This document shows, piece by piece, positions 4,586 to 7,614 of a DNA stretch of 64,000 nt (its first letter is position 1; each line of letters opens with the position of its first letter). Both the position numbers and the translations under genes were made by a program. A model generated the notes under the pieces. It did not search any database, had not been told where the DNA came from, and worked only from the letters and a program-made list of their open reading frames with translations. The stretch covers positions 2,078,605 through 2,142,604 of the forward strand of contig JAHBTE010000001.1 of assembly GCA_019638675.1 (NCBI GenBank), given 5' to 3'. Source of the DNA: Fimbriimonadaceae bacterium (lineage in GTDB: Bacteria; Armatimonadota; Fimbriimonadia; Fimbriimonadales; Fimbriimonadaceae).

Positions 4586-5565
4586 TTCCGCACGTTTGAC
4601 TTGAGGAACTCTTTTAGACCGTCAAGCAATGCTGGTTGGGGTGGGCCAGTGACACCCGCATCAGTAGCTTTACCGACGACTTTGAAGTTGTGGCTTGTAT
4701 TAGGAATCAGCAGTAGCTTTGCGTTTTTCTTCTCGCGCGACATCGCCGCTTCGTACAATGGTTTCGCATCTCGTTCGGCATTGATTTGCACATCTGATTC
4801 GCCGTTGGCAATAAACACAGCCCCCTTATACGCTTTTAGGGCGGGAATTGGGTCGAAGTTGAAGTACCCGTTCAAGATATGCCCGTTAGAAGGAGAGAAA
4901 AGAGGGGCAAGTCCAGGGTGGAGGCCGGTTGCGGGAGTTGTACTGGCCTTGCTAGTTGTAATTGCGCGATCCAGGTCGTTAATCAGTTGAGTTTTGACAT
5001 CTGAATCTGGAAGCGGGTTGATTTGCGCCATAAGTTGCTCGCGCAGAATCACATCCATTCCTCGACCAGGTGCGGCGAGTAAACAAATTGCCTTCGGGTT
5101 CAATTTTGCCGCCAGAGCAACGGTGAACAGACCGCCTTCACTGTGTCCGGCTAAGACCATACGGGACGTATCTACATTTGGCTGAGTCTTGAGGAAATTG
5201 TAAGCGGCCTCAACATCAGCAAGATGGTTTTCTAAACTGAAAAACGGGCTGATTTCTGCAATGGTTTTTGGCCAAAGTTCGCGGTAGCGTGCAACAGGTC
5301 GCTTATCGAACCGCATCACTACAAAACCAGCTTCAGAAAGTGTGTTGCCAATTTCCTTCAGCAAATCAGTTTTGTAAGTCGGCAGTTGGTTTCCGTCACG
5401 GTCAGTTGGGCCAGAGCCAGGCATAATGAGGAAAGCGGGATGCTTTTTACCGTCTTCTGGCGGGGAAGTAATCACGCCAGCAAGCTCTAGCCCAGTTCCT
5501 TGGAACTTAACTTCGGTGCTCTTAACATCTAAGAAAATCAATGAGGCGGCAAGTAATTCGATCAT
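4582..5565 (-). CDS. Secreted or membrane-anchored alpha/beta hydrolase
   Basis: This 327-residue protein has a hydrophobic N-terminus that could act as a signal peptide, then an alpha/beta hydrolase core. The nucleophile elbow is GHSEGG at about residues 141-146, the acid is probably in NGESDVQ and the histidine in NTSHNF near the C-terminus; the oxyanion region is MPGSGPTDRDGN. This pattern fits serine hydrolases of the dienelactone hydrolase or prolyl oligopeptidase-like group that cut small esters or peptides. The natural substrate is unknown. It is a single gene facing the permeases. Confidence 0.8.
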   Translation of the reverse strand: MIELLAASLIFLDVKSTEVKFQGTGLELAGVITSPPEDGKKHPAFLIMPGSGPTDRDGNQLPTYKTDLLKEIGNTLSEAGFVVMRFDKRPVARYRELWPKTIAEISPFFSLENHLADVEAAYNFLKTQPNVDTSRMVLAGHSEGGLFTVALAAKLNPKAICLLAAPGRGMDVILREQLMAQINPLPDSDVKTQLINDLDRAITTSKASTTPATGLHPGLAPLFSPSNGHILNGYFNFDPIPALKAYKGAVFIANGESDVQINAERDAKPLYEAAMSREKKNAKLLLIPNTSHNFKVVGKATDAGVTGPPQPALLDGLKEFLKSNVRN

Positions 5566-5618
5566 TGTCTAATTATACGACTAATAAGCGATTTAGGATT
5601 CAAATCCCGCCCGTAATC

Positions 5619-5646
5619 TTGACAGGATTTTCTGATCAGGTATAAT
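5619..5646 (+). promoter_or_regulatory. Consensus sigma-70 promoter
   Basis: A perfect -35 (TTGACA, 5619-5624) and perfect -10 (TATAAT, 5641-5646) are separated by 16 bases. Transcription would start near 5653, exactly at the 5' edge of the riboswitch aptamer. Confidence 0.85.
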
Positions 5647-5650
5647 TGGG

Positions 5651-5775
5651 TTACGTCGAATCTGGATTTACATCTGGAACGGGGGAACCACCTGAATAGG
5701 GGGTGAAGTGCATAAGGACTTGCACAGGTTTATTCTTGAACCTAACCCGGCAGCTAACCTCGTAGGCGAAATCAA
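5651..5775 (+). ncRNA. c-di-AMP riboswitch (ydaO/yuaA class)
   Basis: The leader carries the conserved blocks of the ydaO aptamer in order: GTCGAATCTGG at 5655-5665, GGGGGAACC at 5681-5689, GGGGGTGAA at 5699-5707, a variable hairpin closed by GTGCA and TGCAC (5708-5712 with 5721-5725), AACCCGGCAGCTAACCTCG at about 5744-5762 and GGCG at 5765-5768, which pairs with CGTC at 5654-5657 to form P1. This class binds cyclic di-AMP and usually switches the downstream gene off when ligand is present. No intrinsic terminator follows the aptamer, so control is probably at the ribosome binding site, which is G-rich (5817-5826). Assignment is from memory of the consensus; a covariance search would settle it. 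Confidence 0.9.
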
Positions 5776-5830
5776 GAATCATGAATGTAAAACTGAATCC
5801 CATATCATCAGTCGTAACGGGGGTGACCCT

Positions 5831-6115
5831 ATGTCGTTCGTAAGCCAAATAATGCGCAAAGCGAGCATCGTAGAGAGATCCGAAGTTGAGCCTGCTGAGA
5901 AAGTAGATAAGTTCGAAGAACTTGTAGACGAAGCTGGGGTGATTCGAGATCGAATGGAAGCATCTTTTGCGAGATTGTCGCCATCTGAAGTTGAATCACT
6001 TGGCCCGGGGCGAAGAAAGGAAATTGCACAGTTGACAGAAACGATTATGAAGTTGAAGTCAAAACGGCGAGAATTCCTTGGCTCTCGGCCTTCCGGTGAA
6101 ATCACGATTCACTAA
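5831..6115 (+). CDS. Small coiled-coil protein under the c-di-AMP riboswitch
   Basis: I do not recognise this 94-residue protein. The ATG at 5831 is chosen because a GGGGGTGA ribosome binding site lies 5-8 bases upstream; an upstream in-frame start at 5708 lies inside the riboswitch aptamer and is unlikely. The sequence is hydrophilic and charged, with heptad-like helices over residues 18-45 and 58-82 (for example VDKFEELVDEAGVIRDRM) and no signal peptide or membrane segment, so it should be cytoplasmic and helical. It is followed after 38 bases by the sponge-like gene, with which it should share the riboswitch transcript. Confidence 0.75.
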   Translation: MSFVSQIMRKASIVERSEVEPAEKVDKFEELVDEAGVIRDRMEASFARLSPSEVESLGPGRRKEIAQLTETIMKLKSKRREFLGSRPSGEITIH

Positions 6116-6140
6116 CAAAAATCGGATCCACTCAATCCGT

Positions 6141-6146
6141 AGGAGG
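6141..6146 (+). promoter_or_regulatory. Strong ribosome binding site deciding the start at 6154
   Basis: AGGAGG sits 7 bases before the ATG at 6154 but only 1 base before another in-frame ATG at 6148, so the second ATG is the likely start. Confidence 0.8.
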
Positions 6147-6153
6147 GATGATC

Positions 6154-6480
6154 ATGAGTGAAAATATGGAGAAATTCCGACATCTGGACGGCAGCGGCGC
6201 CGTAATAGACCAGGAATTTATCAAGGTCACGTTCCAACACGGAGGCACACCAGAAAATATCGGAGCCAACGGATGTCGGATTGAAGACGTGATCGAAGTC
6301 TTGCAGCAAAAGTTGCTCGATTTCCAAGGTCGGGAACTTGAATGCAAGGAAAATGCCACCGCGCTATACCATTTAGATTTAGCAAGGGAAGCATTATTGA
6401 TACGCCGGAGACGGAGAGAACAACAGGGAGTGATTGGGTCAAGGGCGACCCACGAATCCGCTGACCTTGTTGCCAAATAA
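6154..6480 (+). CDS. Acb2/Tad1 hairpin-domain-like small protein
   Basis: The 108-residue product contains, from residue 23 to 97, the series IKVTFQ, IGANGCRIEDVIEVLQQKLLDFQ split as a beta strand and helix, C64-K-E-N-A, and a final RRRRREQQGVIG. In my recollection this order (FQ, G-x-NG, EDV, FQ, C-x-ENA, R-x-x-x-GVxG) is the signature of the Acb2/Tad1 hairpin family, small phage proteins that sequester cyclic nucleotide signals of CBASS and Thoeris defence. No phage genes are nearby. The gene lies downstream of a c-di-AMP riboswitch and ends before a clear terminator, so it may bind a cyclic nucleotide for housekeeping. Family membership is probable, ligand unknown. The start is set by the AGGAGG at 6141-6146. 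Confidence 0.6.
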   Translation: MSENMEKFRHLDGSGAVIDQEFIKVTFQHGGTPENIGANGCRIEDVIEVLQQKLLDFQGRELECKENATALYHLDLAREALLIRRRRREQQGVIGSRATHESADLVAK

Positions 6481-6501
6481 AATCTCCAGTGGCATCAATG
6501 C

Positions 6502-6534
6502 GCGGCGATCCTTCGGGGTCGCCGCAATTATTTT
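6502..6534 (+). terminator. Rho-independent terminator after the riboswitch operon
   Basis: A 10-bp G+C-rich stem (6502-6511 with 6516-6525) closed by a TTCG tetraloop is followed by AATTATTTT. It ends the riboswitch operon; leuB converges from the other side. Confidence 0.85.
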
Positions 6535-6546
6535 AAGCCTTGCGAA

Positions 6547-7614
6547 TTACAGTTCGCGAACGATGGCATCGCCCATTTCGCTGGTGTTGACGATTTGGCA
6601 ACCGTTCTCAAACACATCCGAGGTTCGTGTGCCGTTGGCCAATGCTTTTTCGACTGCGCTGTCAATTCGGTCGGCGGTTGCGTCATCTTTGAATGAATAC
6701 CGAACCAGCATAGATGCGCTGAGAATCGCCGCTATCGGGTTTGCTTTGCCTTGTCCGGCAATATCTGGTGCCGAGCCGTGTACCGGCTCGTACAGGCCAA
6801 AAACGATATCGCCTTTGGGGTCGCTTACCGAAGCAGATGGTAGAAGGCCAAGCGAACCGGTGATCATGGATGCCTCATCGCTCAAGATATCACCGAACAT
6901 ATTTTCGGTGAGAATGACGTCGAATTGACCAGGATCGCGGATAAGTTGCATCGCGCAGTTATCTACAAGCATGAAGCTAGTTGAAACTTGCGGATACTGA
7001 GATGAAATTTCGGTAACGATTTCTCGCCAAAGCCGACTGGTTTCCAAAACGTTGCTTTTATCAACCGCGACCAAATTCTTGCGTCGTTGCATCGCGATTT
7101 CGTATGCGCGGTGAGTGATCCGTTCGATTTCTGCCCGAGTGTAAAGGCAAGTGTCGAAGGCAGTGTTGCCGTCGTCGCGTCGGCCGCGTGGTTCGCCAAA
7201 GTAGATTCCTCCGGTGAGCTCTCGCACCACCATTAGATCCATCATGCTCCGGCCTTCTTTAAGTGGGGAGGCGTGAATTAGAGGTGTGAGCGTTTTTGCA
7301 GGTCGCAAGTTAGCATACAGGTTGAGTTCGCTCCGGATTGCAAGCAAACCGCCGATTTCCGGGCGCTTTGTCAAAGGTTGAAGGCTGTCCCATTTGGGGC
7401 CGCCAACCGCGCCGAGTAGTACTGCATCTGATGCTTGGCATAGGGCAAGAGTAGCGGCAGGAAGTGGTTCGCCGCAATCATCGTAGCCAGCACCACCGAA
7501 CGGGGCACTTTCGAATTCAATATCAAGTCCGGTGGCTTTAAGAACCTTGACGGCTTCGTCTGTTACTTCTGGGCCAATCCCATCGCCGGGCAACACTGCA
7601 ACCTTGAAAGGCAT
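6547..7614 (-). CDS. leuB: 3-isopropylmalate dehydrogenase
   Basis: The enzyme oxidises and decarboxylates 3-isopropylmalate with NAD in leucine synthesis. From the ATG at 7614 it has 355 residues, the usual size, and opens with [14 protein letters not shown]; an in-frame start 57 bases upstream would add an unlikely tail. Other family marks are the substrate-binding [24 protein letters not shown] with the catalytic Lys, the metal-binding Asp residues in [11 protein letters not shown], and [15 protein letters not shown]. It is the last gene of a long minus-strand run, 22 bases after a small membrane protein. No leuA/C/D is close by, so the leucine pathway is split. Confidence 0.95.

Follow-up and report, generated by a model that had tools for sequence, protein, structure and literature searches.

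Organization of the locus

The window, by which we mean the whole stretch of 64,000 nucleotides analysed from a Fimbriimonadaceae bacterium, contains at 5619-6534 a compact transcription unit that opens with a promoter and a c-di-AMP riboswitch, continues with two small genes and closes with an intrinsic terminator (Table 1). The first-pass annotation, made by a model from the letters of the sequence, had described a consensus promoter, a ydaO-class aptamer and two small reading frames in an area without phage genes, and had proposed an Rfam check of the aptamer. All of this is borne out. The promoter agrees with the consensus in every base, the RF00379 covariance match spans the whole model (1-134) and scores 78.3 bits compared to a gathering score of 38, and both reading frames are present. 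The flanking genes that were tested are cellular or housekeeping genes (ABC transporter permeases, an alpha/beta hydrolase, leuB, hisS and a DAHP-synthetase-family gene), and the gene order around the unit is kept within the genus in G003, G005, G006 and G007.

A promoter scan of 5560-6600 gave no match besides the one at 5619-5646, and thus no second promoter between ORF1 and ORF2. We infer that transcription starts near 5653, at the base directly preceding P1. A TATAAT-like box is found at the corresponding place in most leaders of the genus.

Table 1. Features of the transcription unit, with positions in the window
Feature	Position	Strand	Basis
Sigma-70-type promoter, TTGACA-16-TATAAT	5619..5646	+	12/12 consensus bases
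c-di-AMP riboswitch aptamer, ydaO/yuaA class, RF00379	5644..5783	+	cmscan 78.3 bits, E 1.7e-16
Putative expression platform with Shine-Dalgarno-like GGGGGTGA at 5819-5826 serving ORF1	5784..5830	+	sequence
ORF1, 94 aa, from a divergent family of small three-helix proteins	5831..6115	+	translation, AF2
Shine-Dalgarno AGGAGGG of the Tad1-like gene	6141..6147	+	6 nt before ATG 6154
ORF2, Tad1-like, 108 aa, putative cyclic-nucleotide binder	6154..6480	+	sequence, profile, fold
Intrinsic terminator-like hairpin, then AATTATTTTA	6502..6525	+	10 pairs, 8 G-C, T-rich tail

Riboswitch and sign of control

The aptamer is the sole RF00379 match in the 2.85-Mb genome. As the terminator scan revealed no intrinsic terminator in 5784-5830, control is perhaps translational. 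In that case the riboswitch may act mainly on ORF1 and may have little effect on tad1, which lies 38 nt beyond with a Shine-Dalgarno sequence of its own. We compared fold models of the bound and the free state, with the aptamer enforced or not, for 11 leaders, and the accessibility of the Shine-Dalgarno sequence shifted both ways. An alternative pairing between the 5' strand of P1 and the segment before the Shine-Dalgarno sequence was noticed by eye in some leaders; it is absent from the closest relative and was rejected.

Among ydaO-class riboswitches, the characterised ones are regarded as OFF switches, acting on transcription in B. subtilis and probably on translation in the case of C. glutamicum nlpC (PMC9960051). 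Placed before a c-di-AMP sponge, such a switch would reinforce a low c-di-AMP level, so that buffering is not the default reading. The simple feedback buffer for c-di-AMP which had been suggested for this locus is weak for this reason, as the known ydaO-type behaviour would lead to positive feedback on the low-c-di-AMP state.

Riboswitches of this class were also observed ahead of hisB (imidazoleglycerol-phosphate dehydratase) in five genera, with L035:1833-2489 and L160:636-1238 assigned by Pfam (IGPD) and L036, L038 and L052 by eye. Asparagine synthase, MFS transporters and a PPIase gene with a MazG gene behind it are further targets.

ORF2 as a homologue of Tad1

Tad1 (Thoeris anti-defence 1) and Acb2 (anti-CBASS 2) had both been named as relatives of the ORF2 product, on account of a residue pattern recognized by eye. 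The pattern is present in the protein, with the blocks FQHGG, GANG, EDV, FQ, CKENA and REQQGVIG. The family link stands for Tad1, where sequence, profile and fold agree, and falls for Acb2, for which no sequence match was obtained. A phmmer search of the PDB with ORF2 leads to Tad1 chains at E 2.5e-5, and a profile built from 36 of its relatives reaches Tad1 chains at E 1.5e-14; Acb2 chains do not occur among the PDB matches of either search. ORF2 is 44% identical (tblastn) to the founding Tad1 of phage SBSphiJ7, with homology spanning about 75 residues. With hhalign the probability is 98%, and ORF2 falls into PHROG 2428 (E 4e-14), a family that also contains the SBSphiJ7 protein.

The AlphaFold model of ORF2 has a mean pLDDT of 76, with about 90 in the helices, and possesses fewer N-terminal strands than the Tad1 fold. 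With this model Foldseek returned Tad1 on all ranks from 1 to 20, with prob 1.00 for 16 Tad1 chains (ranks 1-16). The eight best VIA-align entries are likewise Tad1, with Z-scores of 7.6-8.8 over 84-92 residues compared to at most 6.1 for unrelated proteins. A Pfam HMM search and a structure search had both been proposed for this protein; the latter thus placed Tad1 on top, while for PF24729 (Acb2_Tad1_hairpin) ORF2 remains below the threshold, which SBSphiJ7 Tad1 itself clears narrowly. Pfam, NCBIfam and PADLOC offered no useful family for ORF2; in PADLOC there were three matches to Cas10_Id at E 2e-4.

When four members of the ORF2 family are aligned with two phage Tad1-type proteins of full length and with fragments of CbTad1 and CmTad1, 12 columns show no variation (F27, Q28, G31, G40, D45, L54, Q58, E66, N67, A70, R84 and R88). 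Three of these, N67, R84 and R88, align with positions of CbTad1 which we presume to be ligand contacts. The nearest named relative of ORF2, with 99% identity, belongs to the Fimbriimonadaceae MAG ACE_ARM8 (Armatimonadota). Judged by sequence, profile and predicted fold, ORF2 is a true homologue of Tad1 and not of Acb2.

PHROG 2428, 23843 and 22140 are labelled as of unknown function, yet hold Tad1 or Tad1-type domains. We further report that chain gp184 (230 aa) of PDB entry 8y6v, a virion protein of a jumbo phage, matches the Tad1 profile, which points to a Tad1-type domain within a solved structure.

Distribution and recurrence of the riboswitch link

Tad1-like homologues were found in 68 out of 113 genomes of the order, with 79 genes altogether, and nowhere else among the 291 genomes of the phylum that were searched. 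One of the searches gave 30 of these 68 genomes, at 48-100% identity. Purifying selection is strong on tad1 and on ORF1, with dN/dS values of 0.016 and 0.034, respectively, in comparison with the closest species (G003). In seven of the genus's eight genomes there is another Tad1-like copy, without riboswitch; the riboswitch-free paralogue at G000:C1:448621-448926 (L084) sits behind a family-38 alpha-mannosidase gene, an arrangement present in ten genomes. In the tree the chromosomal family lies deeply apart from the two phage proteins included, and pattern scans of viral contigs with exact peptide words of this clade found no relative of ORF2. The tad1 gene is a vertically maintained, ordinary cellular gene and not phage cargo. 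The term "domesticated", which the first-pass annotation had considered, can be kept in so far as the gene is chromosomally fixed and under purifying selection in the cell, whichever way it may have passed between phages and bacteria.

An RF00379 riboswitch is located upstream of tad1, on the same strand and 47-806 nt away, in 16 genomes from 8 genera (G000-G007, G014, G017, G018, G024, G031, G067, G091 and G098), where about 0.02 such neighbourhoods would be expected by chance over all 79 genes. The riboswitch is absent from the other 63 out of 79 Tad1-like genes of the order, so that control by c-di-AMP is no inherent property of this family. The link between riboswitch and gene that had been proposed as a check in related genomes recurs, but the riboswitch does not accompany tad1 in general. 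Mapping the label "linked" on the tree requires five changes, of which no fewer than three are forced, and this indicates repeated gain or loss of the link. In 14 out of 16 linked copies a small ORF lies between the riboswitch and tad1, and the linked pairs of the 8 genera carry different small ORFs. In G018 and G098, which belong to one genus, tad1 follows directly after the aptamer (47-48 nt).

ORF1 and the small three-helix proteins

Close homologues of ORF1 are confined to the genus. Many c-di-AMP riboswitches of the order have small, basic, helical ORFs within about 60 nt downstream, often alone. With HMMs derived from such riboswitch-adjacent ORFs, ORF1 of the window obtains E 0.014 among 5,993 ORFs, and the ORF1 proteins of the genus range from E 0.006 to 0.08, just below the HMM members. 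In an alignment ORF1 shares the columns F3, E23 and K24 with the riboswitch-adjacent proteins. Its AF2 model (pLDDT 88.8) consists of three helices, H3-16, H21-47 and H51-84, for which a fold search retrieved generic helical bundles only, with no PDB match at E 0.001 or better. Small three-helix proteins occur with a C-terminal tail (L155, L180, L181, L182, L185, L212-L214) and without it (L043, L047, L050, L156, L178 and others). A small-protein family seemingly dedicated to c-di-AMP riboswitches in the phylum is thereby brought to light.

A hint towards a connection with Tad1 arises from G085 (L198:1832-2551), where a frame of 239 aa joins a small riboswitch-type protein to a Tad1-like domain. 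It contains the motif IAFDTAPNYLGTP, and the C-terminal motif F-x-[YT]-x-P-x-Y of the small proteins is found at the junction; the HMM score is weak and is reached by 3 out of 1,000 shuffles. This frame appears to be a fusion of such a small protein with a Tad1-like one, and no riboswitch was found upstream of it.

One subfamily of the small proteins ends in FM[ED][FY]SS. Scanning the 113 genomes for the corresponding DNA pattern we obtained nine matches compared to none in the control. Seven of them are right after a c-di-AMP riboswitch, one (L210) is a family member for which no riboswitch was detected, and one is without a stop codon. Similar to this tail are the C-termini FPKFSS, FPTFSS or EFSATGA of the Tad1-like proteins L100, L188-L190, L074 and L201-L206. 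Based on their sequences, a common partner or tag for the tails of both protein families is possible.

Proposed ligand and circuit

A diadenylate cyclase (DAC) domain is present in the window genome and in 88 out of 88 good genomes, and c-di-AMP is therefore presumably made. SMODS CD-NTases (14 genomes) and ThsB-TIR proteins (20 genomes) are patchy in comparison, and the window genome has no match to either when searched with one family model each at the thresholds applied. In view of the universal presence of DAC and the patchiness of the other two, we favor a ligand from among the cyclic nucleotides that the cell itself makes. Binding of CDNs, CTNs and gcADPR has been published for Tad1 proteins, and c-di-AMP (cAA) was bound weakly by the one that was tested (PMC12043709). 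Two of four tested Tad1 alleles trigger Panoptes, probably via binding of 2',3'-c-di-AMP (PMC12657218).

We propose, giving the idea an even chance, that a c-di-AMP riboswitch here heads a chromosomal operon for two proteins working together, ORF1 and a Tad1-family binder of a cyclic nucleotide made by the cell. Tad1 is a hexamer; the Tad1-like protein would form an oligomer of this type, and the oligomer would bind c-di-AMP, a related cyclic di- or trinucleotide, or a gcADPR-like molecule. ORF1 might act together with it as partner or adaptor; the small ORF lying between riboswitch and tad1 in most linked copies and the G085 fusion both suggest such a functional pairing. High c-di-AMP would most likely lower expression through the riboswitch, as in the characterised cases, and the binder would be made when c-di-AMP is low. 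Were c-di-AMP itself the ligand, the low-c-di-AMP state would be sharpened and not buffered. The weak binding of cAA by the published Tad1 counts against the proposal, as does the lack of part of the phage Tad1 N-terminal strands in ORF2 (108 vs 142 aa).

The narrower version, in which c-di-AMP or a derivative is bound by a Tad1-type protein whose amount c-di-AMP itself governs via the riboswitch, with a member of the three-helix family as partner, is tentative, and we would rather not count on it. If true, it would mean that the anti-immune sponge fold of phages has a housekeeping branch in c-di-AMP signalling.

An unlikely alternative is that the Tad1-like protein is a sponge for immune signals, providing self-protection or a threshold, while c-di-AMP merely reports the state of the cell and thereby sets the level of the protein. 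The signals in question would be CBASS cyclic oligonucleotides, gcADPR or type III CRISPR cOA, from the cell or its neighbours. Every known function of Tad1 is of that kind (PMC12043709), and within the same two families the Tad1-like gene occurs in 14 out of 14 genomes with a SMODS CD-NTase compared to 54 out of 79 others (Fisher p 0.018, relatedness ignored). On the other hand, 44 of the 68 genomes bearing a Tad1-like gene, the window genome included, are without SMODS and ThsB-TIR matches, an association with ThsB-TIR is absent (p 0.77), and vertical conservation under strong purifying selection is unlike arms-race evolution.

The invariance of the polar residues N67, R84 and R88 across phage Tad1 and the chromosomal family would be unexpected for a scaffold alone. 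We therefore doubt that the fold has been reused for a structural or adaptor partner of ORF1, with nucleotide binding lost or incidental, even if the pairing and possible fusion with small helical proteins, the [FY]S[SA]-type C-terminal tails common to both families in some genomes and the Tad1-type domain of gp184 in the jumbo-phage virion (8y6v) agree with such a role.

If the riboswitch controlled ORF1 alone, the Tad1-like gene would be a passive downstream passenger. This would fit the small helical ORFs standing alone after many c-di-AMP riboswitches, the majority of Tad1-like genes without riboswitch and the strong Shine-Dalgarno sequence of ORF2. It is nevertheless rather improbable, since the pairing is repeated in 8 genera with different small ORFs, tad1 comes straight after the aptamer in G018 and G098, and the promoter scan detected no second promoter between the two genes. 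A recent prophage remnant or phage cargo caught by chance behind the riboswitch, to which the phage nature of the Tad1 family and the matches to phage Acb2/Tad1 hairpin proteins in a viral structure library could point, is extremely improbable and was rejected in view of the conserved housekeeping neighbours and synteny, the order-wide distribution, the two old paralogues in the genus, the deep split from phage Tad1 in the tree, the purifying selection and the pattern scans of viral contigs, which with exact clade peptide words gave no relative.

Comparison with known systems

The literature presents proteins of the Tad1 family as weapons with which phages counter the nucleotide signalling of bacteria, and signal-trapping proteins may serve the physiology of the bacterium itself, too. 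A vertically inherited and strongly constrained bacterial Tad1 branch that is repeatedly linked to a c-di-AMP riboswitch makes a normal role of sponges in second-messenger signalling testable, and likewise whether phage Tad1 descended from cellular binders or gave rise to them.

ORF2 has the same strand-plus-hairpin fold and the same 12 invariant residues as Tad1 (SBSphiJ7 Tad1, CbTad1, CmTad1; PHROG 2428). Unlike phage Tad1, the chromosomal family is vertically inherited, has a shorter N-terminus and an RRRRRE-rich second helix, is frequently accompanied by a putative partner ORF, is found behind a riboswitch that would control it in 8 genera and stays below the PF24729 threshold. Tad1 is typically encoded by phages or prophages, whereas ORF2 has housekeeping neighbours, conserved synteny and an order-wide distribution. 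With Acb2 the helical hairpin is common (7uq2, VIA-align Z 5.7), but the best structural matches of ORF2 are Tad1, the beta part included.

The aptamer belongs to the same class as those of the c-di-AMP riboswitch regulons (ydaO/kimA, kdp, rpfA, nlpC), in which cell-wall genes and genes for K+/osmolyte transport have been characterised as targets (PMC9960051). A Tad1-family gene behind a c-di-AMP riboswitch is without precedent in the literature searched, subscription papers aside. Cellular receptors of c-di-AMP include the PII-like DarA and the CBS-domain protein CbpB/DarB, with folds unrelated to Tad1, and we know of no riboswitch-controlled expression for receptors of these types. If its ligand is c-di-AMP, ORF2 would be one more small receptor or buffer protein beside DarA and CbpB/DarB. 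The anatomy of the unit and the link to Tad1 are solid, and we regard ORF2 as a cellular variant of Tad1 with probably unusual regulation.
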